Positions 32,252 to 60,335 of a stretch of DNA of 64,000 nt are shown one piece after another (position 1 is the first letter of the stretch; each line of letters starts with the position of its first letter). The stretch comes from Niallia sp. FSL W8-0635. GTDB taxonomy: Bacteria > Bacillota > Bacilli > Bacillales > Cytobacillaceae. The notes beneath the pieces were generated by a model. The model searched no databases and was not told where the DNA came from. It was given only the letters and a program-made list of their open reading frames with translations. The stretch covers positions 248,001 to 312,000 of the forward strand of contig NZ_JBBOYD010000002.1 of NCBI RefSeq assembly GCF_038007965.1, written 5' to 3'. The translations under genes were made by a program, and so were the position numbers.

Positions 32252-32252
32252 T

Positions 32253-42665: not shown

Positions 42666-45120
42666 TTAAGAAAGTTTCAATGGTCTTAAAGAATCTAACG
42701 AGACCATTTTCTCCGAATTAAAATGGTATTCTCCAAGTAAATTAATATGTTCCCAACCTAGAGGTGACATATGGTGCAATAATTCTTCATTAAAACTACC
42801 TGACCGTTTTTGATATTCAACTGCCTTTGTTAGATGTAAAGTATTCCAGATACTGATGGCATTGATAATGATGTTTAAGGCACTGGCCCTTTGCAATTGA
42901 TGCTGTATGGTTCGTTCCCTAAGCTCGCCTTGTTTTCCGAAGAAAATAGCTCTTGCCAGTCCATTCATGGCTTCTCCTTTATTCAATCCTTTTTGTATTT
43001 TTCTTCTTAATGATTCATCCGAAATATAATTCAAAATAAAGATCGTTTTTTCTATTCGGCCCATCTCACGTAAGGCTGTAGCCAAGCTGTTTTGTCTTGA
43101 ATAAGAACCTAATTTCCCCATAATAAGGGATGCTGAAACTGTTCCTTCCCTTATAGAATGAGCTAATCGCAAAACATCCTCATAATTCTCTTTAATGACC
43201 TTTGTATTTATTTGTCCACGTAAAATGACTTCTAATTTTGGATACTCACTTGCCTTATCTATTGTAAATAATTTCGAGTCTGATAAATCTCGTATTCTTG
43301 GAGCAAATTTAAATCCTAATAAATGGGTCAGTCCGAATATTTGGTCTGTGTAACCAGCCGTGTCTGTATAATGCTCTACTATATTTAGATCCGTCTCATG
43401 GTGTAACAAACCATCCAAAACATGAATCGCATCCATTGAATTAGTATGAATAATCTTTGTGTAATAAGAAGAAAATTGATCACTTGTAAAACGATAGATG
43501 GTGGCTCCTTTTCTAGTTCCATAATGTGGGTTTGCATCTGCATGTAGCGATGAAACGCCTATCTGCATTCTCATACCATCGGACGAGGATGTTGTACCGT
43601 CTCCCCAATAAGAAGACAATTGCAATTTGTGATGAAAATTTACTAATACGGCTTGGGCTTTATTCATTGCATCTTCATACATGCGCCATTGTGATACATT
43701 GGCCAATTGCTTATATGTAAGTCCGGGTGTTGCTTCAGCCATTTTGCTTAAACCAATATTCATTCCCATTCCTAAAAGAGCAGCCATAATAATAATTGTT
43801 TCTTCTTTATCCGGTTTTCGATTATTGGAAGCATGAATAAATTGCTCATGAAATCCTGTTATATAAGCAATATCCATCAGTAAATCGGTTAATTTTATTC
43901 TTGGTAGCATCTGATACAGGCTTGCACTAAATTTTTTTGCTTCTTCTGGAACATCTTTTTCTAAGCGTGCAATTGACAGCTTTCCTTTTTCAAGAGAAAC
44001 CCCGTCTAACTTGTTGGAATTGGTAGCTAACCACTTTAACCTTTAGGCTGCTGGTTCTCTCCGTCATATAATCCTCGAATGATAAACTAACTGATAATCT
44101 TGTATTCTCCTTCGTTTGATTCCATGTATCTTCTGAAAACAAATATTCTTCAAAGTCTCTATATTGTCTGCTGCCAACAATGGAAACATCTCCTGCCCTA
44201 ACATGCTCCCGAAGTTCTGTTAAAACAGCCATTTCATAGTAATGACGATTGATTGTTGTACCATCATCCTCGTATAAATGCTTTTTCCAACGTTTTGAAA
44301 TAAAATCCACAGGTGAGTCATTAGGCACTTTTCGCTTTCCGGATTCGTTCATTCCACGGATAATCTCAACAGCTTGTAAAAGTGGTTCATTTGCTTTTGT
44401 AGAATGAAATTCCAATACCCTTAATAGCGTTGGCGTATATTTTCTAAGTGAATAAAATCGTTTTTGCAGTAAGTCTAAATAATCATAGTCGGCAGGGCGT
44501 GCAAGCTCCTGAGCTTCTTCGACCGAAGAGACAAAAGAATTCCATTCGATAACGGATTCTAAAACCTCAAAAACGTCTAATTTTTCCTTTTTTGCTTTGA
44601 TTAAAGCTTGTCCGATGTTCGTAAAGTGTATAACTTTCTCATTCAGCTTTTTACCGTTTTGTTTCTGAATTTCCTCTTGAGCCTTACGGCCTTTTGATAA
44701 CAGACTAAGTATTTGTCTATCATGAATTTCAAAAGCTTTATCCGTTAACTCTTGAGTAAGATGTAATAAATAGACGGTTAATATCGAATATCGCTTATTT
44801 TCTTGAAAGTCACGGAATGCATATGGCTCATATCTTGAGCCTAAGCGAGATAGTTGTAACAGGCGATTGCGATGCAAATGACTAATTTGTACCGTTTCTA
44901 ATTCCATTCCTCGTATGTATTCGAGTCGTTCTATTACTTTTAGAAATGTTTCGGGTGAAGGATGACCCGGCGGTTCCTTTAACCAACCCAATATCGTTTT
45001 ATTGGATTCGGATGGATGCTGCGAAGTAATGATCTCTTCAAGCTTTCCTTTTTGTTCATTTGTAAGAGATTGACTAACAGTATTAAACAGTTTCTTTTCA
45101 GCCATTGCCCTTGCTGTCAC
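42666..45120 (-). pseudogene. tnpA: Tn1546-type Tn3-family transposase, frameshifted and truncated
   Basis: Two frames (42666-43910 and 43990-45120) together cover about residues 165-983 of a TnpA like that of the mercury transposon. The DDE parts are intact (SYWGDGTTSSSDGMR, YTDTAGYTDQIFG, KGEAMNGLARAIFFG). A single extra G near 44036 shifts the frame: dropping it restores KWLATNSNKLDGVSLEKG across the gap. The first 160 residues are missing, and res-like GTGCAAAATAGC sequence lies at 45126-45165. Confidence 0.88.
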
Positions 45121-45241: not shown

Positions 45242-45558
45242 AAAAAATAGTTGTTTAACTTTCTTCATCCTGTACCCATTTATCTCAAAATAAATAACAA
45301 TAAAGTCGTTTAAAAACAAAGAGTTCTTCCACTATTTCGCCCGATTTGTTGAATAGATTTTTCATTATACATAACAAGAAATAATGCGTAGTAGACACAA
45401 GAAGCGCTACTGATCGGCGGCGCTTCGGACACAAAATGTTCAGTAAAAAAACCGACGAGATTGCCGGCTTCTACAAAATTAATGATCATTCATAAAATAT
45501 AAAAATCAAACTGCATAATTTTGTTCGTCGGCTGAAGCTTGTGTAAATGCACCTTTAA

Positions 45559-45596
45559 GGGGTACGACCGAGGTACTTGTAAAAAAGGGTCATAGC
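45559..45596 (+). repeat. left terminal inverted repeat of RuMP transposon
   Basis: GGGGTACGACCGAGGTACTT onward to GGGTCATAG; preceded by TTTAA. Confidence 0.92.
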
Positions 45597-45627
45597 ATGG
45601 ATTTTTTTTACATTTACAACCCTTTTT
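45582..45627 (+). terminator. subterminal hairpin at left end of RuMP transposon
   Basis: AAAAAGGGT (45582-45590) pairs with ACCCTTTTT (45619-45627). It mirrors the tnpA terminator near the right end. On the plus strand it could stop outside transcription from entering; on the minus strand it could end the Gfo/Idh transcript. Confidence 0.55.
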
Positions 45628-45970
45628 ACTCTGTAGGGTAGGGTGGGGTCAGAAAAGTGCGGTTGTTGGTAGGATCCTAATAGGGGTAGTGTCATTGTTG
45701 CTACTCCTATTAAGGAATACTTAAACTAAATCACAAATTAAAGAAGAAACACATCTTAAAAAATGAGCATTGAACCTTTGCATAATAAGCAAAAGTCCTT
45801 TAAAATTTGTTAGCCGGGTAGAAAATGCTATAATGCTCTTATAAAAAAGAATGGATGCAAAATAGTTTAGGTAAGTTCTAAAACGATTTCTTTTATTCTT
45901 CGACAAACAGGCCAGATTCGTAATTTCTCAAGAGAATAATACAAGTCGCTGTAGGGGTTTTTGTGTTTTT
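45628..45970. other. non-coding stretch inside the left end of the RuMP transposon
   Basis: No gene is supported. It contains an imperfect hairpin (CCTAATAGGGGTAG at 45676 against CTACTCCTATTAAGG at 45701) and, at 45664, TGTTGGTAGGATCC, which faintly resembles the mercury transposon end. Confidence 0.5.
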
Positions 45971-46957
45971 TCACTTATGATCACTTTGATATACAAGACC
46001 TATTTCATCTCTCACTTTATCCAACACTTGTATCGTGGTGTATGAATTTTTATATGAGTTAGTATCAGACTCTGTTTTTCCTCGGTTGATTAATTCAATA
46101 AATTCTTTCACTTCGTAATACATAGCTGGATGAGATTGGTCGACTGTTAATTGTTCAACCGTGCCGTCAGTGTAGTGAATTTCTACTTTTTCAGCCGTAT
46201 GAATCTTATCAATCATGATACTTCCTTTTTCGCCTTGAATTTCGCTTGGTAAATAAGAGTTCGTTATTTTGGAATACATCACAATCGCATCTTTATCATC
46301 ATATTTTAAGATGACGCTACCTTCACCATCCACACCCGAATCAAGCATAATGCCAGTTGCCTTCACTTCTTTTGGTTCACCAAATAATGTAATAAGTGGA
46401 TACAAACAATAGACACCAAGGTCCATTAATGAACCGTTCGCAAACTCTGGATTGAAGGCATTAAGGACAATTCCTTCTTTGTATTTATCATAACGAGATG
46501 AATACTGACAATAGCTTGCAAAGTATCTACGGATAGGACCAATTTTATGTAAATTATCTTGAATGACCTTGAAGTTTGGAAGTAATGTTGATTTCATTGC
46601 TTCCATTAATAGGGCGTTATGATCTTTTGAGGCTTGAATCATCCTCGCTACTTCGGTTGCATTAACAGCCAGTGGCTTTTCACATAACACATGTTTGCCA
46701 TTTTGCAAAAATAAAATAGCTTGTTCTGCGTGATATGAATTGGGAGTAGCAATGTACACCGCGTCAATTTCTTGACTAACTGCCATTTCTTTTAGGTTTG
46801 TAAATATTTTTGTTACTCCATATTTACTTGCAAATTCTTCTGCTCTACTAATCGTGCGAGAATAAACAGCAGTTAGTTTAAAATCTTCTACATCATTTGC
46901 TGCTTCAAGTAATCTTTCTGTAATCCAATTAGTACCGATTACGCCGAATCGAACCAT
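45971..46957 (-). CDS. Gfo/Idh/MocA-family NAD(P)-dependent oxidoreductase
   Basis: A 328-aa dehydrogenase. The Rossmann start FGVIGTNWITERLL, IATPNSYHAEQA and HVLCEKPLAVNATE (the E-K-P motif with the catalytic lysine) define the family; the C-terminal GFO_IDH_MocA domain follows. Members oxidise sugars or inositol derivatives or act on 1,5-anhydro and diketone sugars. As part of this transposon it may act on a sugar phosphate side product, but that is a guess. It lies 358 bp from hxlB on the same strand. Confidence 0.85.
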   Translation of the reverse strand: MVRFGVIGTNWITERLLEAANDVEDFKLTAVYSRTISRAEEFASKYGVTKIFTNLKEMAVSQEIDAVYIATPNSYHAEQAILFLQNGKHVLCEKPLAVNATEVARMIQASKDHNALLMEAMKSTLLPNFKVIQDNLHKIGPIRRYFASYCQYSSRYDKYKEGIVLNAFNPEFANGSLMDLGVYCLYPLITLFGEPKEVKATGIMLDSGVDGEGSVILKYDDKDAIVMYSKITNSYLPSEIQGEKGSIMIDKIHTAEKVEIHYTDGTVEQLTVDQSHPAMYYEVKEFIELINRGKTESDTNSYKNSYTTIQVLDKVRDEIGLVYQSDHK

Positions 46958-47061
46958 TTATTCAACCTCATTCCTTTGTTTTATAAAACGAAGAGTTTTG
47001 TTTACTACACTTATGAAGCGTTTTTCATCGCCAATAGGATTTTATTTTCCCATAAAAAAAC

Positions 47062-47229
47062 TTATATAGACATGGGGCCTACCAGTGAAATATTGGTGAT
47101 AACCCAAATAGGGCTCATACTGTGAGTGATGGCTAAATTCTTGGCTGTGCCCCACCCAATAATGATCTCTGATCCGGCCATAGAAGGGACTGAATCAGAG
47201 GCTATTTTTTCTTTCCTGTATGGACTGTG
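47062..47229 (-). pseudogene. coding relic, possibly a PiT/CysP-type permease fragment
   Basis: An uninterrupted minus-strand frame without a start reads SDSVPSMAGSEIIIGWGTAK, NLAITHSMSPIWVITNISLV to a stop. The style resembles anion permeases, but I cannot confirm it. It shows that the interval between the Gfo/Idh gene and hxlB was built from broken pieces. Confidence 0.3.
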
Positions 47230-47246
47230 TTATTTGTAATATGCAG

Positions 47247-47286
47247 TAAAGACCGCAATTCATAAAAGAAATAAATGCGGTCTTTA
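47247..47286 (-). terminator. hairpin after hxlB
   Basis: TAAAGACCGCA pairs with TGCGGTCTTTA (11 bp), 30 bp downstream of the hxlB stop. The T-run is weak, so it may slow rather than fully stop transcription. Confidence 0.6.
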
Positions 47287-47315
47287 CGATGTTTCCATAT
47301 TTTTTAAAGTGTACT

Positions 47316-47873
47316 CTATTCGAGATTGGCATGTTTGCCGTACATTTTAGTAGAGTCTAAGCCTTTTTTTTCCATAAAACGCAAGATCAATGCATCATAA
47401 AATAATAACATCGTTTGCTCAAAAAGTGACCCCATTGGTTGTATGGTCTTGTATTCACTTTCAGATTGATCTTTCGGTGATCCAGGCAATTTAATGATAA
47501 TATCAGCTAATTTTCCAATCGTGGAGTCAGGGGAAATCGTTACAGCTGCGACCGTCCCACCTAAACTTTTTGCTTTTTCAGCGATTGAAACCAAGGTTTT
47601 CGTTTCACCTGAACCTGAACCGATGATCAACAAATCACCTTTTTCTAAATTTGCTGTTACAGTTTCACCGACTACATAAGCATCGATCCCCATGTGCATC
47701 ATTCTCATCACGAAAGATTTGCCCATAAATCCAGATCTGCCCGCACCTGCAACAAAGATTTTTTTGGATTCCAGAATCTTATTAACCAACTTCTCTGCTT
47801 CTTCGTCAGAGATTAAGTCGACTGTCCGACTTAATTCTTGAACGACTTCAGCTAAATATTGAGTAGTTTTCAT
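47316..47873 (-). CDS. hxlB: 6-phospho-3-hexuloisomerase
   Basis: A 185-aa SIS-domain isomerase turning hexulose 6-phosphate (arabino-3-hexulose 6-phosphate) into fructose 6-phosphate, the second step of RuMP formaldehyde fixation. IFVAGAGRSGFMGKSFVMR, DLLIIGSGSGETKTLVSIAE and AAVTISPDSTIGKLADI are the sugar-phosphate-binding motifs. Length equals that of the B. subtilis enzyme. It follows hxlA by 8 bp in one operon. Confidence 0.95.
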   Translation of the reverse strand: MKTTQYLAEVVQELSRTVDLISDEEAEKLVNKILESKKIFVAGAGRSGFMGKSFVMRMMHMGIDAYVVGETVTANLEKGDLLIIGSGSGETKTLVSIAEKAKSLGGTVAAVTISPDSTIGKLADIIIKLPGSPKDQSESEYKTIQPMGSLFEQTMLLFYDALILRFMEKKGLDSTKMYGKHANLE

Positions 47874-47881
47874 AGTTATAA

Positions 47882-48514
47882 TTAACCTTGTTTAATTAAT
47901 TCTTGCATTTTAGCTGCAACTGCTTTTTTATCGTCTTTGCTTGTGATACCGCCACCTACGATGACAAGATCTGGTTGTACTTTAATCACATCTGGAAGTG
48001 TTTCTAATTTGATTCCGCCTGCAATAGCAGTTTTCGCATTTTTTACAACGCTCTTAATGGTTGCAAGGTCTTCGAAAGAATTTTTTCCTACAGCTTGAAG
48101 GTCATAACCTGTGTGAACGCAGATATAATCTACTCCTAGTTCATCCAGTTCTTTCGCACGACCTTCAATGTCTTTAACTGCGATCATATCAGCAAGGATT
48201 TGTTTACCTTGTTTTTTTGCTTCTTCTACAGCACCTTTAATGGACTCGTCTTCAGCTGTACCAAGAATGGTGATGATGTCAGCGCCTGCTGCAGATGCTT
48301 GGCTAACTTCATATCCAGCTGCATCCATGATTTTAAGGTCAGCTAATACAGTTAAGTTAGGGAAGGCAGCTTTCACTTCCTTTACTGCTTTAAGGCCTTC
48401 ATTAATCACAACCGGCGTGCCGATTTCTACAACATCTATATGATTTTCTACTTCTTTCACCAATTCAATGGCTCCTGGAATATCTACAAGATCTAATGCT
48501 AATTGTAATTTCAT
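47882..48514 (-). CDS. hxlA: 3-hexulose-6-phosphate synthase
   Basis: A 210-aa TIM-barrel aldolase of the orotidine decarboxylase suprafamily. It condenses formaldehyde with ribulose 5-phosphate. LQLALDLVD, ADLKIMDAA (Asp59, Lys61, Asp64: the D-x-K-x-x-D metal and catalytic motif), VHTGYDLQA and VIVGGGITSKDD (phosphate-binding) are all present. GGAGCGAG precedes the ATG. First gene of the hxlAB operon, divergent from hxlR. Confidence 0.97.
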   Translation of the reverse strand: MKLQLALDLVDIPGAIELVKEVENHIDVVEIGTPVVINEGLKAVKEVKAAFPNLTVLADLKIMDAAGYEVSQASAAGADIITILGTAEDESIKGAVEEAKKQGKQILADMIAVKDIEGRAKELDELGVDYICVHTGYDLQAVGKNSFEDLATIKSVVKNAKTAIAGGIKLETLPDVIKVQPDLVIVGGGITSKDDKKAVAAKMQELIKQG

Positions 48515-48717
48515 TTATTACTCGCTCCTTATATAATAGTATATTGTGCCGTATAGCTTTCTTTTGCACAGTGTTATTGTATCCAATTGATAGCTATTTA
48601 CTAACGGTATGATACTCAGTATACTGGGTATGTTACTAAATTAAAAGTATGCACTTTTTTATCATATAGTAACAAAAAGTATACTATGGGACATAATAAG
48701 GGTTGGAGGTGAAATGA
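48515..48717. promoter_or_regulatory. hxlA-hxlR divergent control region with twin AGTATACT sites
   Basis: 203 bp separate the two genes. The palindrome AGTATACT occurs at 48618-48625 and 48678-48685, exactly 60 bp apart, each within similar surroundings (GATACTCAGTATACTGGGTA and AAAAAGTATACTATGGGACA). In B. subtilis HxlR binds two sites in this region to turn on hxlAB under formaldehyde; these are the natural candidates here. Confidence 0.6.
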
Positions 48718-49083
48718 ATGCCGAATCTTGGGGAAAAAGTGTTTAATTGTGAAAAAGAATTGACTCTTTCGATTATTGGTGGAAAATGGAAAATGTTGGT
48801 ATTGTGGCATCTAGGAAAAGAAGGAACCAAACGTTTTGGTGAACTAAAGGCCCTCATGCCGGGTATCACTCAAAGAATGCTTGTTAATCAATTGCGCGAA
48901 CTTGAAGACCATTTGATTGTTCATCGTGAAGTCTATCCTGTCGTTCCACCAAAAGTTGAATACTCACTCACTGAGTATGGAAGAAGTCTGATGCCTATTC
49001 TGGATGCTATGTATGACTGGGGTAAAGATTATATTGAGAATGTATTGGAAAAAGAAACAGAAAACAAATCGTCTATTCAGTAG
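48718..49083 (+). CDS. hxlR: HxlR-type transcriptional activator of the RuMP operon
   Basis: A 121-aa winged-helix regulator. [28 protein letters not shown] and [12 protein letters not shown] are the HxlR signatures. Cys11 and Lys13 are both present (FNCEKEL). In B. subtilis HxlR these two residues are reported to be crosslinked by formaldehyde, which activates DNA binding. GGAGGTG lies 8 bp before the ATG. Two terminators follow (49143-49185 and 49258-49306). Confidence 0.93.
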
Positions 49084-49142
49084 AAAAAAGTGTTTCTCCT
49101 AGGGGTTCGAAAAAGTGTAAAAAAGTTCATATACTAACAAAC

Positions 49143-49185
49143 CACGGTTAGCTATCTTAATAAAGATGCTGTCCGTGTTTTTTTA
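49143..49185 (+). terminator. intrinsic terminator after hxlR
   Basis: CACGGTTAGCTATCTT pairs imperfectly with AAGATGCTGTCCGTG and is followed by TTTTTTT. Confidence 0.8.
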
Positions 49186-49257
49186 TATCTCTACGTATTT
49201 AAAAGGTTGAAAAAACACAACATTTAAACACAACATTTAATAAAAGAATCAGTTACT

Positions 49258-49306
49258 AAAAAGCCAAGGGCAGCGAATCTTGTATAATCGCTGTCCTTGG
49301 CTTTTC
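49258..49306. terminator. second strong hairpin terminator
   Basis: AAAAGCCAAGG and CAGCGA pair with TCGCTG and CCTTGGCTTTT around a short loop; nearly symmetrical, so it could act in both directions. The gap to 49557 otherwise shows only a repeated AAACACAACATTT at 49214 and 49227. Confidence 0.8.
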
Positions 49307-49557
49307 ACTCTTGGTATTGGATTCAAGTTTATAGTATTATTTTTAACACTATGTTATACCAATGTATCTATATGTTAATAAAGTGCGTACTTTCAAAAAT
49401 ATAACATACGTAATATACTGATTTTGCTCAAGTAATAGCGAGCTTAAAGAATACTACCAAACCTTAAGGGAATACTGCTACAAGCATGGTGAGATGAAGT
49501 GAAACTTCATTTAATAATTTATACATGTTGTTGCTTTTTACGAAAGGAGAGATCCGC

Positions 49558-49722
49558 ATGGAAAGGTTCAAAACTAAGCAGCGAAAAGTTTGTGAAAGAT
49601 GTCTAATCATCACCATAAATAATGAAACCTGTCCAAAATGTGGACATTCTCAATTAAGAGATATCATTATTACCGGACAAGCTGGGAGAAATAAACGAAA
49701 CTTACATCCAAAAGTAGGATAA
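49558..49722 (+). CDS. small zinc-ribbon protein, 54 aa
   Basis: AAAGGAGAG supports ATG 49558; the earlier in-frame start is unlikely. Two CxxC pairs (VCERC, TCPKCGH) form a zinc ribbon. The rest is basic. Lies 96 bp upstream of zwf on the same strand. Possibly a regulator or chaperone; no function known. Confidence 0.55.
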   Translation: MERFKTKQRKVCERCLIITINNETCPKCGHSQLRDIIITGQAGRNKRNLHPKVG

Positions 49723-49818
49723 CGCAATAGCGAAAATCCTTGTTGTTTTGTAGGGAAAACGAAGAAAATCAGACATTTTTCTATTTGAAAATGCTTTGAA
49801 AAAGTGGAGGAATGAAAA

Positions 49819-51291
49819 GTGGATTCTATGACGTTTGTCTTATTTGGGGCAACTGGGGATTTAGCTAAGCGAAAAATCTACCCTGCCTTGTTTAATTTAT
49901 ATTTGAATCAAAAATTACCAGATTCTTTTTTGATCATTGGTGTAGGAATAGACGAAATGTCTGATGTTGATTTTCAAAACCATGTAACAGACTCGCTATA
50001 CACTTTTTCTAGACACTTGATAAATGATAAATCCGAAAAACAAGAGTTTGTAAAGGCATTTCGTTATTGCCAGTTAGATTTCACGAATGCTGAAGGGTAT
50101 AAGAAGTTAGTTGAAGTCGTTCAACAAAATGAAAAAGACCAGAGTATTGAAGAGAATCGAATGTTTTATCTTTCTGTTGCTCCTGAATTCTTTGATGTAA
50201 TTGCTTTGAACATCAAGGAGAGTGGATTAGGCTCGACAAAAGGATGGAAACGATTAATGATCGAAAAACCATTTGGGCGTGATTTAAAATCTGCTCAAGA
50301 TTTAAATGAAAAACTAAGCAAAGCTTTTGAAGAAGACGAAATTTTCAGGATTGACCATTATCTTGGAAAACCGATGGTTCAAAACCTTGAAGCTTTAGAA
50401 TTTGCCAACCCTGTGCTGCAATCACTATGGAACAATCGGTATATTGCCAATGTGCAAATAACGGCTAGTGAAACGGTTGGTGTAGAAGAGAGAGCTAGTT
50501 ATTATGAAAAAGCAGGGGCTATTCGTGATATGGTCCAAAATCATATGATGCAGCTGTTGATGATGACGGCCATGCATCAGCCAAAACAGATGAGCACGAA
50601 CGATATCCGTACAGTGAAAAGAAAAGTTATGGACTCTCTTCGGCCTGTACAGAAAGATACTGTAGGTATCCACGTTGTTCGTGGTCAATATGGACCGGGG
50701 GAAATAAAGGGTAAACCTGTAGTCGGATATTTAGAAGAACCTGGAGTGAATGCTTCTTCCACAAACGATACATTTGTGGCTGCTCGTTTATGGATTGATA
50801 GTTCATTCTGGGATGGGGTGCCATTTTATATCCGGACAGGAAAAAGAATGAAGGAAAAGTCGACGCGGATTGTGATTGAATTCAAGAATCCAACGAAAAA
50901 TGTGTATACTAACGAGAATCAATTTGCAGAACCCAATCTATTAGTTATCAAAGTAAGTCCAAATGAGGGTGTGTCGATGCAATTAAATAGCAAAAATTTA
51001 ACAAATGGAAATTTGGAGCCGATAATTGTTGACTTCTCAGCAAGTACAAAAGACATACCAGAAGCTTATGAACTCTTAATATTCGATGCTCTGCGTGGGG
51101 ACTCTACCTTCTTTGCTCATTGGGACGAAGTTGAATTATCTTGGAAATGGGTACAGCCCGTTTTAGAGGCGTTTGAGGAAAATGCCCTTCCACTCCACCT
51201 ATATCAAGCCGGTTCGATGGGGCCACAAGCTGCTTCGCAATTATTGGAGGAGGATGGTTTTAAATGGTGGGAAACCAGGGGGGGAGTTTAA
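49819..51291 (+). CDS. zwf: glucose-6-phosphate 1-dehydrogenase
   Basis: A 490-aa enzyme oxidising glucose 6-phosphate to 6-phosphoglucono-lactone with NAD(P). FVLFGATGDLAKRKIYPALF is the cofactor-binding start, FRIDHYLGKPMVQN is the active-site peptide (the conserved R-I-D-H-Y-L-G-K), and YIRTGKRMKEKSTRI lies in the C-terminal domain. Full length. GGAGG lies 8 bp before GTG 49819. In the transposon it starts the oxidative arm that regenerates ribulose 5-phosphate. Confidence 0.97.
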   Translation: MDSMTFVLFGATGDLAKRKIYPALFNLYLNQKLPDSFLIIGVGIDEMSDVDFQNHVTDSLYTFSRHLINDKSEKQEFVKAFRYCQLDFTNAEGYKKLVEVVQQNEKDQSIEENRMFYLSVAPEFFDVIALNIKESGLGSTKGWKRLMIEKPFGRDLKSAQDLNEKLSKAFEEDEIFRIDHYLGKPMVQNLEALEFANPVLQSLWNNRYIANVQITASETVGVEERASYYEKAGAIRDMVQNHMMQLLMMTAMHQPKQMSTNDIRTVKRKVMDSLRPVQKDTVGIHVVRGQYGPGEIKGKPVVGYLEEPGVNASSTNDTFVAARLWIDSSFWDGVPFYIRTGKRMKEKSTRIVIEFKNPTKNVYTNENQFAEPNLLVIKVSPNEGVSMQLNSKNLTNGNLEPIIVDFSASTKDIPEAYELLIFDALRGDSTFFAHWDEVELSWKWVQPVLEAFEENALPLHLYQAGSMGPQAASQLLEEDGFKWWETRGGV

Positions 51292-51489
51292 TCCGCACCT
51301 CCCTGGAAGGCTATTGGTATGAAGAGAGCAAACCGAGGTTGGATTTGACAGATAATTGTTACGCGATTTACCCAAGGAACTTAAAGTATTTGTTGAATCC
51401 TTATGGTTCCATAAGGAGACCATGAAGAACAACAAATGGGTAGCATAATAATACACGCTATTTTTTGTAATTTAAAGGAGGAAACTCAA

Positions 51490-52383
51490 GTGAAAGTAGG
51501 ATTAATTGGATTAGGGAAAATGGGTATGAACTTAGGAAAAAACTTAATTGACAATAAACACCGTGTAATGGCGTTTGATCTAAATACAAATACTATTGAA
51601 GAAATTAAAAAATATGGAGTTGAAGGAGCATCCAGTTTACAAGATCTTGTTCAATCATTAGAAAAGCCACGAGTTGTTTGGATAATGGTCCCACACTCCG
51701 TCGTTGATTCAGTTATTAGTGAAATCACACCATTTCTAAGTGAAGGAGATATCGTCATTGAAGCTGGTAATTCGCATTATAAGGAATCCATTCGTCGTTA
51801 CGAACAGTTGAAGAAAGTTGGAGTGAGCTTTATGGATGCCGGTACTTCTGGGGGGATGGAAGGTGCTCGCTATGGTGCTTGTTATATGATTGGTGGAGAT
51901 CCTGAAGCATGGAGCATTGTCGAGCCGATTTTTAGAGATACAGCTGTAGATAATGGGTATTTATATGCTGGGAAATCTGGTAGTGGCCACTTCTTAAAAA
52001 TGGTCCACAATGGAATAGAATACGGAATGATGGCCGCCATTGGTGAAGGATTCGAAGTCCTGGAAAAAAGCGATTTCGATTTTGACTATGAAAAAGTGGC
52101 ACGGGTGTGGAATAACGGTTCTGTCATCCGCTCATGGCTCATGGAATTGACAGAACGCGCATTTTCTAAAGATGCAAAATTAGATGAAATTAAGGGCATT
52201 ATGCATTCTTCTGGGGAAGGGAAATGGACAGTTGAAACCGCTTTGGATCTTCAAACAGCTACCCCTGTTATCGCTATGTCTTTACTAATGCGTTACCGTT
52301 CATTAGACAATGATACATTTACAGGTAAAGTGGTAGCTTCCCTTCGTAATGAATTTGGCGGACATGCTGTGGAAAAATCATAA
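51490..52383 (+). CDS. gnd: 6-phosphogluconate dehydrogenase, decarboxylating, short type
   Basis: A 298-aa enzyme turning 6-phosphogluconate into ribulose 5-phosphate and CO2. VGLIGLGKMGMNLGKNLID is the nucleotide fold, FMDAGTSGGMEGARYGACYM the substrate motif and GHFLKMVHNGIEYGMM has the catalytic lysine. This is the short (about 300 aa) YqeC/GndA type, usually NAD-linked, rather than the 470-aa form. AAAGGAGG places the start at GTG 51490. Closes the RuMP cycle and releases formaldehyde carbon as CO2. Confidence 0.95.
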   Translation: MKVGLIGLGKMGMNLGKNLIDNKHRVMAFDLNTNTIEEIKKYGVEGASSLQDLVQSLEKPRVVWIMVPHSVVDSVISEITPFLSEGDIVIEAGNSHYKESIRRYEQLKKVGVSFMDAGTSGGMEGARYGACYMIGGDPEAWSIVEPIFRDTAVDNGYLYAGKSGSGHFLKMVHNGIEYGMMAAIGEGFEVLEKSDFDFDYEKVARVWNNGSVIRSWLMELTERAFSKDAKLDEIKGIMHSSGEGKWTVETALDLQTATPVIAMSLLMRYRSLDNDTFTGKVVASLRNEFGGHAVEKS

Positions 52384-52504
52384 AGTCATCTGCTGTATAT
52401 GTCTTTCGTTAAAATGAGCCGGAAATTCATTGGATTTTTAGTTTGGTATATCCCAAAAATTGGTAGATTTACTTAAGTCGTTGATAGTGCTAACTATGTT
52501 GATT

Positions 52505-52695
52505 GAAGCGGAAGGAGCGAGACTCCTCGAAAATGCATTCACATTTTCTCGTGCGGTGCCTATTCACGGATGATGATTCAACGTCCTGTGGGAAAAACAG
52601 GACAAGGGAGACCCCGCAGCCGCACAGCGCCGAGGAGGCTCCCGGCTCGCCCGCGGAAAGCGAGCACCTGGAGCCAACAGACAAGTTTAACAGAG
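52505..52695. repeat. GC-rich dispersed Bacillus-type repeat
   Basis: A GC-rich block unlike the surrounding DNA, with GGAGCGAGACTCCTCG, GGACAAGGGAGACCCCGCAG, GAGGAGGCTCCCGG and GCGGAAAGCGAGCACCTGGA. I know this wording from intergenic repeats scattered through many Bacillaceae genomes. It folds into several hairpins. It sits between gnd and the next gene and suggests past joining of chromosomal pieces. Confidence 0.65.
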
Positions 52696-52729
52696 CCAAA
52701 AAAATAAAACAATATTGAGGTGTGACATC

Positions 52730-53221
52730 ATGAACGTATTGGATGCAAAAATCATTAACACACAATATGGTTTAGAAACCTATTTAGACATGGTGAAGAA
52801 TATCGAAGTAAAAGAACTCCATTCTCCATCAGATAATGAGCCCTTTTATGAAATAGTATTAGGGATAGAGTATTTTCTTCTAAGGGACGGAAAATACTAT
52901 GATAGTGAAAGGAATTATTTTCGGATTCAAATGAGCGAAGATTTTAATTCAATCACGTTAAGAGAGACAGATACCGAAAGTTTATTTGCTGTCAAAACCG
53001 AACACGAGAGAGACTCAACTAAGCTACTGGTTGGAGAATGGCTTATAAAAACCAATGCTTTCAAGCAAGTAATAAGTGAACTGATCCAACAAAAGAAAAT
53101 GGAGAATGTTCAAAATGAGGGAGACACTCGAAAAGTATTAGGAACGATAAGATTCTTGGAAATATTACTTGAAATCAAAACAGAAGACATACTAAGTGCC
53201 GATGTAGAGAGGGACCATTGA
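52730..53221 (+). CDS. hypothetical protein, 163 aa
   Basis: GAGGTG supports ATG 52730. A soluble acidic protein with a predicted beta-rich first half (EPFYEIVLGIEYFLLRDGKY) and a helical C-terminus. I recognise no family and no 6-phosphogluconolactonase motifs. Located between gnd and pgi on the transposon. Confidence 0.55.
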   Translation: MNVLDAKIINTQYGLETYLDMVKNIEVKELHSPSDNEPFYEIVLGIEYFLLRDGKYYDSERNYFRIQMSEDFNSITLRETDTESLFAVKTEHERDSTKLLVGEWLIKTNAFKQVISELIQQKKMENVQNEGDTRKVLGTIRFLEILLEIKTEDILSADVERDH

Positions 53222-53366
53222 GTTTTCTTAATACTAACTATCTTTTAATGTACGCTATTGATAATTACACGGTCCCACTAAGGATTTTTCAAAATTGAAA
53301 AGGGGGAGTTTAAATGTGTTTTTAAAAACTTCCCTTATATACTGTAGAAAAGGAGAATGCACTAAC

Positions 53367-53465
53367 ATGAAACGTTTTACTATGCCGAGAGATCTTTTTT
53401 ACGGAGAAGGATCTCCGATTGAAGCAGCTAAGCTAAATTTGATTGAAAGGGGAAGTAATGTATGA
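53367..53465 (+). pseudogene. N-terminal remnant of an iron-containing alcohol dehydrogenase
   Basis: AAAGGAG precedes ATG 53367. KRFTMPRDLFYGEGSPIEAA is the typical N-terminus of Fe-dependent (group III) alcohol dehydrogenases, but a stop follows after 32 codons. The TGA overlaps the pgi ATG (ATGA), so the remnant may serve as a translational lead-in for pgi. Confidence 0.65.
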
Positions 53466-54799
53466 CTATTTCGTTTGATTACTCCAATGCATTAGCATTT
53501 ATGAAAAAGAGTGAAGTAGATAATCTAAGTGAATTTGTAAAAGTGGCTCATAAAATGCTACATGAAAAAACAGGCCCCGGCTCTGATTATCTTGGTTGGG
53601 TCGATTTGCCACTAAACTATGATAAGAGTGAATTTGAAAGAATTAAACAAGCTGCTGAAAGAATCAAGAAACATTCAGACGCAATGGTTGTAATTGGTAT
53701 TGGTGGTTCGTACCTGGGGGCAAGATCGGCTATAGAATCTCTGTCCCATAGCTTTCATAACCAGATGAACAATAAGACACATGTTTATTTTGCCGGTCAG
53801 AATATCAGTTCTACTTATATATCTCATTTATTTGAACTATTAGAGGGGAAAGATATCTCTGTTAACGTCATTTCTAAATCAGGAACAACGACAGAGCCAG
53901 CCCTTGCTTTCCGTATTTTCCGTGACTATATGGAGAAAAAATACGGAAAAGAAGAGGCGAGAAAACGTATTTTTGCTACTACAGATCAGAAAAAAGGCGC
54001 ATTAAAAAAGCTTGCGGACGAAGAAGGATATGAAACGTTCGTTATTCCGGATGATGTTGGTGGAAGGTATTCTGTGCTAACAGCAGTTGGTCTCTTACCA
54101 ATTGCCGTAGCAGGACTTGATATTGATCATATGATGGAAGGGGCAGCAGCAGCAGCCCGTAAATACAACAATCCTGATTTATTGACAAATGAGAGCTATC
54201 AGTATGCTGCGGTCCGAAATGTACTCTACAATAAGGGAAAAGCAATTGAAGTGCTTGTTAACTATGAGCCCTCCCTTCACTACGTATCGGAATGGTGGAA
54301 GCAGCTGTTTGGGGAAAGTGAAGGAAAAGATCAAAAGGGGCTATTCCCTGCTTCCGTTGATTTTTCAACGGATTTGCATTCCATGGGGCAATATGTACAA
54401 GAAGGTCGACGAAACCTTTTAGAAACGGTTTTACAGATTAAGAAACCTCGAATTGAAGTGACTATTCAGGAGGATCCAGAAAATATTGATGGATTAAACT
54501 TCCTGGCAGGTAAGACGATGGATGAAGTCAACAAAAGTGCATTTCAGGGTACCCTTATGGCCCATATAGATGGAGAAGTACCTAATCTCGTGATTGAACT
54601 GGATGAAATGAATGAATACACTTACGGTGAGATGGTTTACTTTTTTGAGAAGGCATGTGGGATTAGTGGCCATCTATTAGGAGTTAACCCATTTGACCAG
54701 CCTGGAGTCGAAGCATACAAGAAGAATATGTTTGCTTTACTTGACAAACCTGGTTTTGAAGCAGAAAAAGCTACTCTCATGGAGCGTTTATCAAAATAA
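53462..54799 (+). CDS. pgi: glucose-6-phosphate isomerase
   Basis: A 445-aa full-length cytosolic isomerase interconverting fructose 6-phosphate and glucose 6-phosphate. [55 protein letters not shown] and [14 protein letters not shown] are family motifs. GAAAGGGGAAG precedes the ATG. It links HxlB to Zwf, allowing carbon to cycle rather than enter glycolysis. Confidence 0.97.
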
Positions 54800-55003
54800 T
54801 TATATCTGATTGGTTTTGTATTAATAAAAAGATTGTTACCAAAAACCATATTTTTTGTAACAATATTTATGAGAAATACTGATGCTTGATTTTACTAATT
54901 TTATAGGTTACCAAAAATAATTACCAAAAGTTTTACCAAATACTTTTACAAAAATGATGTCTCTTGTACAATTAGATTATTAAATTGTGCAGGAGGCTTC
55001 TTT
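54800..55003. other. candidate res site of the RuMP transposon
   Basis: Between pgi and tnpR lie several copies of TTACCAAAA (near 54837, 54907, 54921 and 54932 in TTACCAAATAC). The mercury transposon has similar ACCAAAA blocks before its tnpR. These are probably resolvase subsites. Confidence 0.5.
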
Positions 55004-55588
55004 ATGATAATCGGTTATGCTCGAGTTTCGACAGTTGACCAAAATTTAGACCGACAAATTATATTACTTTCTGAGTACGGCTGTGAAAAAATGGTTCAAG
55101 AGAAATTTACTGGGACTACAAAGGATAGAGATGGACTTAACTCATTGCTAGATGTAATAAGGAAAGGTGATACCGTTGTAGTAGAAAGTATTTCACGCTT
55201 AGGGAGAAAAACACTTGATATTCTTTCTATTATTCAGCAATTCGAGGATACTGGTGTAAAGTTCGTTTCTATTAAGGAGAACATGGATACAAGAACATCA
55301 ACAGGAAAAGCCATGTTTCAAATGATGTGTGTCATCGCAGAGTTAGAAAGAAATTTAATTGTAGAAAGAGTTAAAGAAGGGTTAGAAGCGAGTAAAAGAA
55401 GAGGAAAAAAACTAGGAAGGCCTAAAGTGGATCAAGGGAAAATTGAAATAGCCTTGAGGATGTATGACAGTAAAGAATACTCGGTAAAAGAAATTGTAGA
55501 AGGTACAGGACTTTCACAGGGATCATTATATCGAGCGATTAATAAAAGAAAACTAGAGAAGCAAATTAAAAATCTCTTATATTTTTAG
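55004..55588 (+). CDS. tnpR: serine resolvase TnpR of the RuMP transposon
   Basis: A 194-aa resolvase: IGYARVSTVDQNLDRQI (catalytic Ser), VESISRLGRKTLDIL, MMCVIAELERNLIVERV and a C-terminal helix-turn-helix (KEIVEGTGLSQGSLYRAI). GCAGGAGGC precedes the ATG. Full length; resolves cointegrates of this transposon. Confidence 0.93.
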   Translation: MIIGYARVSTVDQNLDRQIILLSEYGCEKMVQEKFTGTTKDRDGLNSLLDVIRKGDTVVVESISRLGRKTLDILSIIQQFEDTGVKFVSIKENMDTRTSTGKAMFQMMCVIAELERNLIVERVKEGLEASKRRGKKLGRPKVDQGKIEIALRMYDSKEYSVKEIVEGTGLSQGSLYRAINKRKLEKQIKNLLYF

Positions 55589-55658
55589 GGAATTATGTGA
55601 CGGACTAGGGCAGCTACTCTGTCACCACCCCCAACTTAATTTGAATGGAGTTGGTAAT

Positions 55659-58607
55659 TTGGCATCTATAGAACGTACGGCTTATCCAAGATTTAAAAAA
55701 CGTCCTACTTCAAAAGAACTTCGTGATGTTTACTCCCCTACACCTGAAGAAAACCAATTTGCGCATAAAGTTGCTAGAGGACCTGTTTCAGTTCTAAGTC
55801 TATTAGTTATGTTAAAGTCTTTCCAACGACTTGGTTACTTTCCTCTACCGAAAGATATTCCTGTAGAGATCATGATTCATATTCGGACCTGTTTGAATCT
55901 CTCTGCTAGTGTTGAACCGAATTACAATAGTAAATCAATTTACCGACATCAAAAAGCAATTAGAGATTACCTCAATGTACGTCCTTATGGAAAAGAAGCC
56001 TTACATATTGCAACTACTTCAATTTATAAGGCTACACAGGTAATGGACAATCCAGCCGATCTTATCAACGTATCCATTGAAATATTAATAAAAGAAAGGT
56101 GTGAATTACCTGCTTTTAGTACATTAGATCGATTGGCTCGTCGTATAAGAACATTAGTGAATCACCAGTTATTTAATTCAGTATTTTCAAAATTGACTCC
56201 TGAAATTGAGCGAAAATTAGATCAATTACTAGTTACTAAAAATGATAATCGGACTTCTGAATATAACTTATTAAAAGAAATTCCAAAAAGCGCAACACTT
56301 TCGCATATGAAAGAAATACAAAATAGGTTACTTCTGTTAACTGATTTTATAGAAGAAATTGATAGCTTACTAGAGGATATTCCAAATTTAAAAATTAAAC
56401 ACTTCGCTTTAGAAGCAAAAGCGCTTGATGCATCAGAATTAAAAGACTTTAATTTAGCTAAAAGATATATGCTGCTACTTTGTATGATTTATCGCTCAAA
56501 AATTTCAGCTATAGATAGTTTGGTAGAGATGTTTCTCAAAAGAGTCAGAACTATACATAACAAAGGCAAAGAGGAGCTAGAACTTCTTCGAGAAAAACAT
56601 AGATCAAAAACTGAAAATCTTATATCTGTTTTGGCGGAAGTCTTAAATGCCACAAGTATAAATGAGAACGATACCTTGACTGGTCAGAAAATAAGGGAGT
56701 TATTAGGGAGAAGAGGTGGTATCGACGCATTAAAAGAAGATTGTGAATCAATTTCATCATATAATGGCAATAACTACCTTCCTCTTTTATGGAAGTTCTA
56801 TAAAAGCCACAGGAAAACTCTTTTTAGATTGATTAGTATGATTGAAATTAATTCAACCACACAGGATCAATCACTTTTAGAAGCTTTACAATTTTTACGT
56901 GATAATGAGAACCGAAAAATTGAAAATCTACAAATAGATTTGGATCTTTCATTTGCTAGTGAACAGTGGAAAAAAACGATTTATGTACCTAAAGAAAATA
57001 ACTTAATCCATCGTAAACACCTTGAAATCTGTATTTTTTCCTATCTTGCAAGCGATTTAAAAACGGGAGACCTTTGTGTAAAAGGATCAGAGAATTTTGC
57101 TGATTACCGTGAACAGCTCCTTTCTTGGGATGAGTGTAAACCTATGGTAGATGAATACTGTAAGGAACTTGGCTTTTCTTCAAATTCAGGGGATTTTGTT
57201 CAACAATTAAAGCTCTGGCTAGGAGATACTGCACAAAAAGTAGATTTAAACTACCCTGATAACGGCCAGGTAATCATTAATGAAAATGGAGAACCAACGT
57301 TGAGAAAAATAATGAGAAAAGAACAACCTCAGACAAGTAAGGCGTTAGAGGTAGTTATTTCTCAACGTTTACCTGAACGAAATGTCTTAGATATTCTTTG
57401 TAATGTAGAACATTGGACAAATTGGACACGGCATTTTGGACCATTATCTGGTTCAGATCCTAAGCTTGAAAATGCAATGGAACGTTATATCATTACTTCT
57501 TTTGGATACGGATGTAATTTAGGACCAACACAGACTTCTAAGCACATGAAAAAAGCAGTAACCCCACACATGATTTCATTTGTAAATCGGCGACATATTA
57601 ATGCATCTAAAATAGACGAAGCTATTCGTAATATTTTAAATCAATACAATCAATTTAGTTTGCCTAGACTATGGGGTGATGGAAAAACGGCTGCTGCAGA
57701 TGGAACAAAATTTGATCTCTACGAAGAAAACTTAATCTCTGAATACCACATTCGATACGGAGGTTATGGGGGGATTGCATATCATCATGTTTCAGATACT
57801 TATATTGCACTCTTTAGTCACTTCATTCCATGTGGAGTTTGGGAAGCAGTTTATATTATTGATGGTTTGCTGAAAAATAAATCAGACATTCAGCCCGATA
57901 CGTTACATGCTGATACGCAAGGTCAATCAACGCCTGTTTTTGCACTTGCACATTTATTGGGGATTAATTTAATGCCTCGTATTCGAAATTGGAAGGATTT
58001 AAAATTTTACAGGGCTGATAAGGACACAAAATATCACCACATTGATCAGTTGTTTAGTGATACCGTTGACTGGGACCTAATTGAAACACACTGGCAAGAT
58101 CTGCTCCAAGTGGTTCTTTCTATAAAAGCTGGTAAAATATTACCCTCTACACTACTTAGAAAACTAAGTAACTATAGTAGAAAAAACCGATTATATCAAG
58201 CTTTTAGGGAATTAGGAAGGATTGTAAGAACTGTATTTTTGCTTAAATATATTTCTGATATAAAACTAAGAGAGCAAATTGGTGCTAGTACAAACAAAGT
58301 CGAAGCATATAACGGCTTTTCCAAATGGCTATTTTTTGGTGGCGATGGGATCATTTCAGAAAATGATCCAGAAGAACAAGAAAAGCGAATTAAATATAAT
58401 GATTTAGTTGCCAACGCAGTAATATTCCAAAATGTATGTGATATAACACTTATTTTGTGGGAACTTTCTAAAGAAGGCTATGTATTTTCAAAAGAAGATA
58501 TTGTCATGCTTAGCCCTTATCTGACTAGGCATATAAAACGTTTCGGAGACTATATGATCGATTTAGAAAATATTCCACAACCAATCGAGGGAGATATTCC
58601 TGTATAG
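55659..58607 (+). CDS. tnpA: Tn3-family transposase of the RuMP transposon
   Basis: A 982-aa transposase of a third Tn3 branch (MASIERTAYPRFKKRP start). DDE residues lie in LWGDGKTAAADGTKFDLY, LHADTQGQSTPVFALAHLLG and NKVEAYNGFSKWLFFGGDG. TTG 55659 is chosen because TGGAG lies 8 bp before and family members begin here. No breaks, so it is probably functional. A terminator overlaps the right end. Confidence 0.94.
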   Translation: MASIERTAYPRFKKRPTSKELRDVYSPTPEENQFAHKVARGPVSVLSLLVMLKSFQRLGYFPLPKDIPVEIMIHIRTCLNLSASVEPNYNSKSIYRHQKAIRDYLNVRPYGKEALHIATTSIYKATQVMDNPADLINVSIEILIKERCELPAFSTLDRLARRIRTLVNHQLFNSVFSKLTPEIERKLDQLLVTKNDNRTSEYNLLKEIPKSATLSHMKEIQNRLLLLTDFIEEIDSLLEDIPNLKIKHFALEAKALDASELKDFNLAKRYMLLLCMIYRSKISAIDSLVEMFLKRVRTIHNKGKEELELLREKHRSKTENLISVLAEVLNATSINENDTLTGQKIRELLGRRGGIDALKEDCESISSYNGNNYLPLLWKFYKSHRKTLFRLISMIEINSTTQDQSLLEALQFLRDNENRKIENLQIDLDLSFASEQWKKTIYVPKENNLIHRKHLEICIFSYLASDLKTGDLCVKGSENFADYREQLLSWDECKPMVDEYCKELGFSSNSGDFVQQLKLWLGDTAQKVDLNYPDNGQVIINENGEPTLRKIMRKEQPQTSKALEVVISQRLPERNVLDILCNVEHWTNWTRHFGPLSGSDPKLENAMERYIITSFGYGCNLGPTQTSKHMKKAVTPHMISFVNRRHINASKIDEAIRNILNQYNQFSLPRLWGDGKTAAADGTKFDLYEENLISEYHIRYGGYGGIAYHHVSDTYIALFSHFIPCGVWEAVYIIDGLLKNKSDIQPDTLHADTQGQSTPVFALAHLLGINLMPRIRNWKDLKFYRADKDTKYHHIDQLFSDTVDWDLIETHWQDLLQVVLSIKAGKILPSTLLRKLSNYSRKNRLYQAFRELGRIVRTVFLLKYISDIKLREQIGASTNKVEAYNGFSKWLFFGGDGIISENDPEEQEKRIKYNDLVANAVIFQNVCDITLILWELSKEGYVFSKEDIVMLSPYLTRHIKRFGDYMIDLENIPQPIEGDIPV

Positions 58608-58631
58608 TATATAAGAAAGTAAAGAGCAAGA

Positions 58632-58676
58632 AAGGGTTATAAATGGTAAACAATACCATACTATGACCCTTTTTTA
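58632..58676 (+). terminator. tnpA terminator overlapping the right end
   Basis: AAGGGTTATAAATGGTA pairs with TACCATACTATGACCCTT, then TTTTTT. It partly lies inside the terminal repeat, whose left counterpart also sits beside a hairpin. Confidence 0.75.
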
Positions 58677-58697
58677 CATGTATCTCGGTCGTACCCC
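58660..58697 (-). repeat. right terminal inverted repeat of RuMP transposon
   Basis: Reverse complement starts GGGGTACGACCGAGATACAT, differing from the left end at three or fewer bases; followed by TTTAA. Confidence 0.92.
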
Positions 58698-58744
58698 TTT
58701 AATAATTTGATTATTAGTACTCCTTGCTATCTTGTGATAAAAAC

Positions 58745-59029
58745 CTACTGCTTTCTGTTTGTTCCCATTTCCTTTTTTGTTACTTTTGTTAATTCAGTTG
58801 TTAATTTGTCAATTTGCTGCTGCATCTTTTCAAACTTTTCATCTAATTCTTTTTGATCTTGTTTTTCTTTTTCTGAATTAATGATTTCCTCATCTATAAC
58901 TGTTATCGCTTCTATAGTTGCAATGCCTTCTTCAATAGTAGTAAGAATAGCAGTTATTAGGGCAAGTCTAAGGCTAGAACTTATTGGCGATTGATCACTT
59001 TGTTCTGACTTTGAATTGGTATTATTCAT
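58745..59029 (-). CDS. hypothetical coiled-coil protein, 94 aa
   Basis: AAAGGGGG supports the ATG at 59029. A polar start (NNTNSKSEQSDQS) leads to a helix (LALITAILTTIEEGIATIEA) and a coiled coil (EKEKQDQKELDEKFEKMQQQ). Unknown function; 42 bp outside the RuMP transposon. Confidence 0.45.
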   Translation of the reverse strand: MNNTNSKSEQSDQSPISSSLRLALITAILTTIEEGIATIEAITVIDEEIINSEKEKQDQKELDEKFEKMQQQIDKLTTELTKVTKKEMGTNRKQ

Positions 59030-59164
59030 ATAATTGCCCCCTTTATCTGACATTGTTAGAAAGGTTTACATTAAACCTATGCTTTAGGTTCTGTAGTAAT
59101 ACATTTCCTTTGAATATTACTTACCTTGAATAAAATAGAAAAATAAAGGAATTTCAATTAGCAA

Positions 59165-59527
59165 TTAATTGCGTAGTTCGTAGAGATTGTAAATCATTAT
59201 CTTCACACCAAGCTAGTGTTCTTCGGTAAATGGAAGTAATTGAAATACCTTTGTTGGACAAGAATATTTTTTTACTTGGTCTTGGATTGCTAGGTCAACT
59301 TTCACTTTGCTCTTATCAGTTCTTTTCATTCGAACCAGTCCTCTTAAACCTAGTTCTTGATATTTCTGAATCCAATAACGCAAAGTGCGAATTGAAATGT
59401 TTTCCTCAACGCTAATCTTTTCTAAATATTTTGGCTTTTGTAAATATGGATAGATAATTAAATATTTTCTGTGTGCTTCCTCTAGTTGTATTTCTGTACA
59501 TTGAGTTAAAGAATTTATTTTTTGCAT
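59165..59527 (-). pseudogene. Tn552-type (Mu-like) transposase N-terminal remnant
   Basis: The helix-turn-helix part (KPKYLEKISVEENISIRTLR, WIQKYQELGLRGLVRMKRTD) matches the start of Tn552/TniA-type transposases. A frameshift near 59215 is followed by ITSIYRRTLAWCEDNDLQSL in the other frame. The DDE core is absent. Confidence 0.7.
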
Positions 59528-59700
59528 TGTCTTTTGTCACTCCCTTTTTTTGGATTCCTGTCCATTGTTTCATATTTTTTATTCAATGTCTATTTAGGGT
59601 AAACCTTAAACAACCACTTAAGCATTATTGTTAAGATTAGGTTTTAAGTGTATGATTAGGGTGTCTATTAAATAGATTTGTAAAAGGAGAAAATTACGAA

Positions 59701-60306: not shown

Positions 60307-60335
60307 AAATCTACGGGTTCTTAAACTATTTAATA

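Follow-up and report, generated by a model that had tools for sequence, protein, structure and literature searches.

A Tn3-family transposon with a predicted formaldehyde-burning cycle as cargo on plasmids of Bacillus-like bacteria

The window analysed, a 64,000-nucleotide stretch of the genome of Niallia sp. FSL W8-0635, raises the question of whether a cycle for the removal of formaldehyde is carried there as a single mobile unit under its own control. The initial annotation had proposed such a unit, in which one Tn3-family element would carry hxlA, hxlB, hxlR, zwf, gnd and pgi as a complete cycle independent of the host.

Structure of the transposon and its cycle enzymes

A single Tn3-family transposon of 13,139 bp was found at positions 45559-58697 of the window, on contig C2 (445,863 bp) of a host whose main contig, C1, measures 4,682,306 bp. 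Its left (45559-45596, plus strand) and right (58660-58697, minus strand) terminal inverted repeats are 38 bp long and are flanked by the target duplication TTTAA (45554-45558 and 58698-58702), which is present as a single copy in the empty site described below. The matching ends proposed at the outset were borne out, with 35 of 38 positions identical and 3 differing; including the duplication, the arms aligned with 86% identity over 72 nt. Ends of about 38 bp beginning with GGGG are typical of the Tn3 family, and ends of this kind were found here together with a 5-bp target duplication and a DDE transposase. The transposase encoded by tnpA (55641-58607, plus strand) matched PF01526 with 502 bits, NF033527 with 736 bits (cut-off 500) and, over residues 71-973, the TnpA of Tn4430 (E 1.7e-74). 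The likeness to Tn4430-type Tn3 transposons, evident from the transposase, the 38-bp ends and the 5-bp duplication, extends to a serine recombinase gene beside tnpA. This gene, tnpR (55004-55588, plus strand; PF00239), is preceded by an inverted repeat (54828-54868) with 18-nt arms of 89% complementarity, whose position before tnpR makes it a candidate for the resolution site that accompanies the resolvase in the Tn3 family.

The gene order was Gfo/Idh-type, hxlB and hxlA on the minus strand, followed on the plus strand by hxlR, a 54-codon ORF, zwf, gnd, an orphan gene for 163 aa, pgi, tnpR and tnpA. All six genes named by the initial annotation were recovered inside the element, the enzymes with curated models above cut-off and hxlR (48718-49083, plus strand) with PF01638. 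The enzymes of cyclic RuMP are represented by HxlA (Hps; 47882-48514, minus strand; TIGR03128), HxlB (Phi, 6-phospho-3-hexuloisomerase; 47316-47873, minus strand; TIGR03127), the glucose-6-phosphate isomerase Pgi (53462-54799, plus strand; NF010697), the glucose-6-phosphate dehydrogenase Zwf (49819-51291, plus strand; TIGR00871) and an NAD-type decarboxylating 6-phosphogluconate dehydrogenase, Gnd (51490-52383, plus strand; TIGR00872). Besides these and the serine recombinase, the element holds a Gfo/Idh/MocA-family oxidoreductase gene as a passenger (45971-46957, minus strand; PF01408), the orphan gene, and the 54-codon ORF (49558-49722, plus strand; WP_155986760.1), which, read by eye, is zinc-ribbon-like with two CxxC pairs and is annotated as a hypothetical protein in some copies.

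No 6-phosphogluconolactonase was found by family models among the ten element proteins scanned, so that the cycle falls one enzyme short of the term complete first applied to it; one lactonase-family gene (PF10282), a candidate 6-phosphogluconolactonase, is present on the host main contig. The proposed duplication of zwf, gnd and pgi was confirmed and applies to hxlA as well, the counterparts on the host main contig being 77% (hxlA), 47% (zwf), 67% (pgi) and 64% and 40% (gnd) identical. In a Zwf tree of 54 of 95 rows, in which about a third of the rows below 55% identity were retained, 32 cassette-type Zwf were separated from housekeeping Zwf, that of the host among them, by a branch with 100/100 support. 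Zwf of a Staphylococcus arlettae plasmid fell on the housekeeping side and that of Exiguobacterium on the cassette side, placements that are unsure because both have long branches. The tree thus marks the Zwf of the element as a dedicated type, separate from housekeeping Zwf.

Judging by these enzyme families, HxlA would combine formaldehyde with ribulose 5-phosphate and HxlB would then yield fructose 6-phosphate, which Pgi would convert to glucose 6-phosphate and Zwf to 6-phosphogluconolactone; after hydrolysis to 6-phosphogluconate, by the host lactonase or spontaneously, Gnd would split off CO2 and regenerate ribulose 5-phosphate. In net terms, one formaldehyde would be converted to CO2 and two reduced cofactors.

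The cargo could instead serve assimilation, in which formaldehyde carbon from methanol or methylated compounds would enter sugar phosphates for growth as a form of accessory methylotrophy, with burning being secondary. Although HxlA and HxlB are common to assimilation and dissimilation, according to passages of PMC8879981, and iron- or zinc-type alcohol dehydrogenase genes adjoin related plasmid cassettes, the genes present in the element, zwf and gnd, burn carbon instead of keeping it. Among the ten scanned proteins, moreover, no family match to methanol dehydrogenase, transketolase, transaldolase, fructose-bisphosphate aldolase or GlpX was obtained. We therefore regard assimilation as improbable and prefer the burning of formaldehyde to CO2.

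The orphan gene (52730-53221, plus strand) encodes a protein with 51 relatives at E 0.001 or better, of which those with a named source are all hypothetical proteins of Bacillus-like bacteria; no Pfam family was matched. Its structure model had a pLDDT of 92, and structure comparison revealed no clear fold relative. Relatives occurred in 41/193 genomes of the family. Neighbourhoods were fetched for 30 loci and gene names were assigned by eye. Among the 17 closest loci (L200-L216, at least 48% identity), zwf, gnd or pgi lay within 1.5 kb in 16, and in 10/11 when the six copies of the element were left out; zwf or pgi was found at 3 of the 13 distant loci (29-36%). Of three distant loci read by eye, one lay by rpiA- and glpX-looking genes and another by a transaldolase-like gene, and the third had no such neighbour. 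By its neighbourhood, the orphan gene is linked to RuMP and pentose-phosphate genes.

Predicted HxlR operators and control of the cycle

HxlR of the element matched the structure 7bzd (E 1.9e-55), and in the alignment it retains both Cys11 and Lys13, the residues crosslinked by formaldehyde in Bacillus subtilis HxlR as stated in passages of PMC7835342. Both residues were kept in 59/61 HxlR-type matches, counted over all loci then compared with repeated stretches included; the two exceptions were staphylococcal HxlR-type proteins with Thr at position 11.

The operator motif was derived in this analysis and not from published HxlR binding regions. A two-box motif was present at 28 or more of 41 positions upstream of hxlA in 36 of the 39 stretches listed. 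For the search of the 64-kb window, a weight matrix was built from 11 non-redundant sites with the copies of this cassette left out, and 40 random sequences with the dinucleotide make-up of the element were used as control. The best 41-bp site in the 64 kb was the predicted HxlR operator upstream of hxlA (48645-48685, minus strand), and a further predicted operator was found upstream of zwf (49333-49392, plus strand), with the left box at 49333-49352 and the right box at 49379-49392. The right box before zwf scored 24.7 bits, the best value in the 64 kb, followed by that of the hxlA promoter with 21.5 bits (random maximum 15.5), while the two best left boxes, with 29.2 and 22.7 bits, were those of the hxlA promoter and, second, the zwf region, the next scoring 16.8. 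The boxes are spaced 46 bp start to start before zwf versus 27 bp before hxlA. With a flexible two-box score of hxlA-type spacing (gap 5-9), the hxlA site reached 50.7 and the zwf region 8.6, barely above the best random value of 8.2; the prediction at zwf therefore draws on the boxes taken one by one and on their comparison across loci.

This comparison was done with thresholds of 15.5 bits for the right box and 15 bits for the left box, and rows with 57% identity or more were taken as cassette-type zwf. The right box was found before 23/36 cassette-type rows versus 1/63 other zwf rows, and the left box before 20/36 versus 1/63. The sole other row with a right box was from an Exiguobacterium plasmid, itself an hxl cluster. 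When the eight near-copies of this cassette were left out, the right box was present in 15/28 rows, one locus accounting for two rows; the 13/28 rows without a box count against an operator before zwf. Among these non-copy rows, hxlA or hxlB was in the fetched stretch of 13 of the 15 with a right box versus none of the 13 without.

Around zwf and pgi of the host itself, and around its long-type gnd (472-aa frame), the fetched stretches had no box at 14 bits. The stretch of its NAD-type gnd had one left box (16.1) on the opposite strand, and a full two-box site was present at its own hxlA. A predicted operator before zwf as well as hxlA, with none found around host zwf and pgi, implies that the whole cycle of the element is likely formaldehyde-induced. 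The independence from host control, a guess in the initial annotation, gains from the same two observations. We propose that formaldehyde would bridge Cys11 and Lys13 and so activate HxlR, which would switch on hxlAB leftward and zwf-gnd-(orphan)-pgi rightward. Under formaldehyde exposure, the element's own zwf, gnd and pgi would then keep the supply of ribulose 5-phosphate from limiting detoxification.

Zwf and Gnd have other uses, namely pentose supply and NADPH, which counts against detoxification. A second alternative is a redox module in which the extra Zwf and Gnd would give reduced cofactor under thiol or oxidative stress, with HxlAB as an adjunct. Peroxiredoxin, thioredoxin and thioredoxin reductase genes follow the diverged cluster on a Priestia megaterium plasmid, and in related MarR/DUF24 regulators Cys11 is a sensor of electrophiles and oxidants, according to passages of PMC7835342. 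However, the regulator of the element is closest to the formaldehyde sensor itself, hxlAB was kept in 11/11 transposon copies, and a Gnd of the NAD-type family would serve NADPH supply poorly. This makes a redox module quite improbable, and a formaldehyde-induced burning cycle is retained as the preferred reading.

Empty site, copies and other vehicles of the cassette

On plasmid pB218 of Metabacillus sp. B2-18, both flanks of the element were found joined at a single TTTAA (7216-7220), with identities of 99.6% and 99.9%, which argues that the ends and the duplication in the window did not arise by chance. The whole unit was present in 4 of 72,556 records of the plasmid collection with 98.5-98.6% identity, and 18 records had a partial match. 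Two plasmids of one P. megaterium strain, pPmC-129-1 and pPmC-129-4, hold full copies with the duplications AAGTA and TCTTT, and Paenibacillus urinalis has a full copy on one plasmid in each of two strains, both with TAACT. Genomes were surveyed with the last 1,698 bp of the element, searched as DNA, and full-length matches rounding to 100% were counted. This element end was present in 6/193 genomes of the family (the window's own, G009, G010, G091, G013 and G212), in 2/397 of an even sample of the order (own and G254) and in 1/398 of the class sample (own).

The copies of G009 and G010 are identical to that of the window in sequence and insertion site, whereas the left flank differs in G091, where the contig stops at the right end of the element; the copy of G254, from another family, has the duplication AAATA. 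Rearranged copies were found in G013 and G212, with a second 586-bp right end about 2.7 kb past the first. No target duplication was seen in G212 (L154), and in G013 (L152, 1158-4398) the outermost ends are flanked by ATATT, which suggests that the unit that moved there may have been longer. The region enclosed by the two right ends of G013 contains a recombinase gene and a gene for a zinc alcohol dehydrogenase, whose best NCBIfam model was glutathione-independent formaldehyde dehydrogenase with a score well below cut-off, and which is 96% identical to the enzyme beside the B. subtilis plasmid cassette described below. Occurrence of the whole unit at different sites, put forward initially as a check, was hence found for at least five sites in several Bacillus-like genera (TTTAA, AAGTA, TCTTT, TAACT, AAATA). 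The copies mark the element as a true mobile unit, on different plasmids and in different genera.

Eleven full copies, including that of the window, were compared. Four of them (pPmC-129-1, pPmC-129-4, G254 and G091) had zero differences over 13,131 bp, and the two identical copies on two plasmids of the one P. megaterium strain agree with replicative transposition. Relative to this identical form, the P. urinalis copies had small gaps besides 1 and 2 substitutions, 38 substitutions were counted in G013 and G212, and the window form had 161, mostly in zwf, where 84 fell in the bin 50559-51058 and 31 in the preceding bin, with neighbouring genes being nearly identical. This pattern identifies the window zwf (50059-51058) as a mosaic tract in common with the B. 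subtilis plasmid. That the genes merely ride along on a successful transposon, with no present benefit to the host, is the least probable alternative: the frame check of all 11 copies revealed the Gfo/Idh gene to be broken in 8, so that decay is allowed in the element, yet next to this decaying gene hxlA, hxlB, hxlR, zwf, gnd and pgi aligned full-length and in one piece in the 10 other copies (zwf of Pu833 to residue 488 of 490), and other vehicles hold the enzyme set too, as do staphylococcal and Exiguobacterium plasmids, where it was apparently assembled separately.

In B. subtilis SRCM102749, window positions 46607-54849 were found with 99.8% identity on a 28-kb plasmid carrying transfer genes, without terminal repeats, tnpR or tnpA. 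Plasmids of Peribacillus frigoritolerans and Bacillus sp. SD075 have hxlR-zwf-gnd-pgi-tnpR and the first bases of tnpA with roughly 86-93% identity, and more diverged gene sets are present on plasmids of Priestia flexa, P. megaterium and Cytobacillus. The same gene order without terminal repeats had been named in the initial annotation as speaking against a transposon-borne cycle; it does occur on the B. subtilis plasmid and, diverged, on Peribacillus, Priestia and Cytobacillus plasmids, but the transposon reading stands. Presence of the cassette without the transposon on several plasmids implies that it uses several vehicles.

Directly to the left of the element, at 42666-45120, two open frames (414 and 376 aa) make up another Tn3-type transposase, of which the part 44400-45114 matches DNA from 162 plasmid records, mostly of Enterococcus, at 90-95%. 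To the right of the element, 58698-63392 has recombinase, DUF6944 and multicopper oxidase genes and is 99.9% like pB218, with 60339-63392 being 99.5% like a B. subtilis plasmid. Further left, at 26406-38024, a full-length Tn3-family tnpA frame (26406-29402) lies beside YhcN/YlaJ, SpoVAC, SpoVAD, DUF421+DUF1657 (2Duf-like) and manganese catalase genes. This region resembles spoVA2mob, the Bacillus cargo for spore heat resistance known from Tn1546 (PMC5133452 and PMC10126465), so that the contig stacks likely spore heat-resistance cargo with formaldehyde cargo. After the four copies, the closest TnpA in the plasmid collection was 73.9% identical. Record CP079755.1, listed as a Klebsiella grimontii plasmid, contains, along with spore germination genes of Bacillus-like type, a Tn3 transposase that resembles that of the element at 72.6%, and is perhaps wrongly labelled or from a mixed sample.

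Relation to known systems and meaning

Transposons of the Tn3 family with catabolic or detoxification cargo are a known kind, to which the element belongs; it differs from catabolic and resistance transposons of the family in that its cargo is a central-carbon cycle with a formaldehyde regulator, which is unusual. The pBM19-type methanol plasmid is defined by a methanol dehydrogenase with RuMP genes, unlike the element, where no methanol dehydrogenase family was matched among the ten scanned proteins. HxlA, HxlB, HxlR and the motif upstream of hxlA are in common with chromosomal hxlAB-hxlR of B. subtilis and relatives; the chromosomal hxl genes of the window's own genome, however, lie far from zwf, gnd and pgi and outside this transposon. 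The reaction set is that of the cyclic dissimilatory RuMP of methylotrophs such as Bacillus methanolicus (passages of PMC8879981), from which the element differs in being compact and mobile with its own regulator, no methanol dehydrogenase having been found. Mobile protection from formaldehyde is also known from Escherichia coli, where plasmid-borne resistance is conferred by a formaldehyde dehydrogenase (Kummerle 1996, as cited in PMC12656544), in contrast to the predicted CO2-ending cycle here.

The nearest parallel was found in staphylococci. Of 204 plasmid records with HxlA-like sequences, 87 belong to Staphylococcus, as do 44 of the 265 with Zwf-like sequences, not all being true HxlA or members of a cluster. 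By annotation, two staphylococcal clusters comprise hxlA, hxlB, pgi and gndA in the vicinity of an IS6-family transposase, and that of S. arlettae also includes zwf; the fetched stretch of the Staphylococcus hominis cluster ends at the start of the record. For the S. hominis qacA plasmid pShoR14-1, passages of PMC9782665 (2022) describe a seven-gene cluster flanked by IS257, with no direct repeats beside the IS257 pair, whose function is called unknown and 'hard to imagine'; for the S. arlettae plasmid, a formaldehyde-inducible hxlAB operon is named in a passage of PMC9302096. The likeness of the pShoR14-1 cluster to the element, as far as described in those passages, is the presence of hxlA, hxlB, zwf, gnd and pgi together on a mobile plasmid, and we infer that this qacA-plasmid cluster makes sense when read as a formaldehyde cycle. 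The two staphylococcal clusters fetched have an NADP-type gndA, IS6/IS257 copies near and Thr for Cys11, whereas the element has Tn3 ends and an NAD-type gnd; staphylococcal plasmid Zwf was 41-43% identical to that of the element among the rows listed, and no HxlR-type operator box was found in the two clusters fetched. The staphylococcal enzyme set was likely put together separately from that of the element. These clusters (L157 and L158) also adjoin copper-handling genes with IS6/IS257 copies.

No paper on the element was found among the matches listed in the open-licence PubMed Central literature, and publication elsewhere is possible. Newly seen here are the predicted HxlR-type operator before zwf, the transposon-free cassette on plasmids, the staphylococcal parallel and the link of the orphan protein. 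At the level of sequence, the transposon, its empty site, its copies elsewhere, the enzyme families and the HxlR-type boxes before hxlA and zwf are established; what the cargo does in metabolism and regulation is a prediction based on protein families, the motif and gene context. We conclude with good confidence that a Tn3-family transposon, present on different plasmids and in different genera, carries a predicted formaldehyde-burning cycle that is likely switched on by formaldehyde.

We lean, with less assurance, towards a wider view. A formaldehyde-sensing transposon would install a private, formaldehyde-induced oxidative RuMP cycle as one nearly self-sufficient resistance unit, with the orphan 163-aa protein as a further cycle component. 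The enzyme set would have been assembled at least twice, with Tn3 and HxlR in Bacillaceae and Paenibacillaceae and with IS257 on staphylococcal biocide-resistance plasmids, and would represent a general kind of mobile formaldehyde resistance that so far has no name. Protection from a reactive poison by mobile genes is usually seen as the work of one enzyme; here it would be a cycle regenerating its own acceptor, for which reason the gene load resembles central metabolism and is easily overlooked. An almost complete detoxification cycle would pass between bacteria in one hop. If this holds true, the presence of hxlAB together with zwf, gnd and pgi on a plasmid would point to formaldehyde resistance and would mark tolerance to a common disinfectant, and the element would be a ready-made, self-regulated module for engineering formaldehyde use into bacteria.
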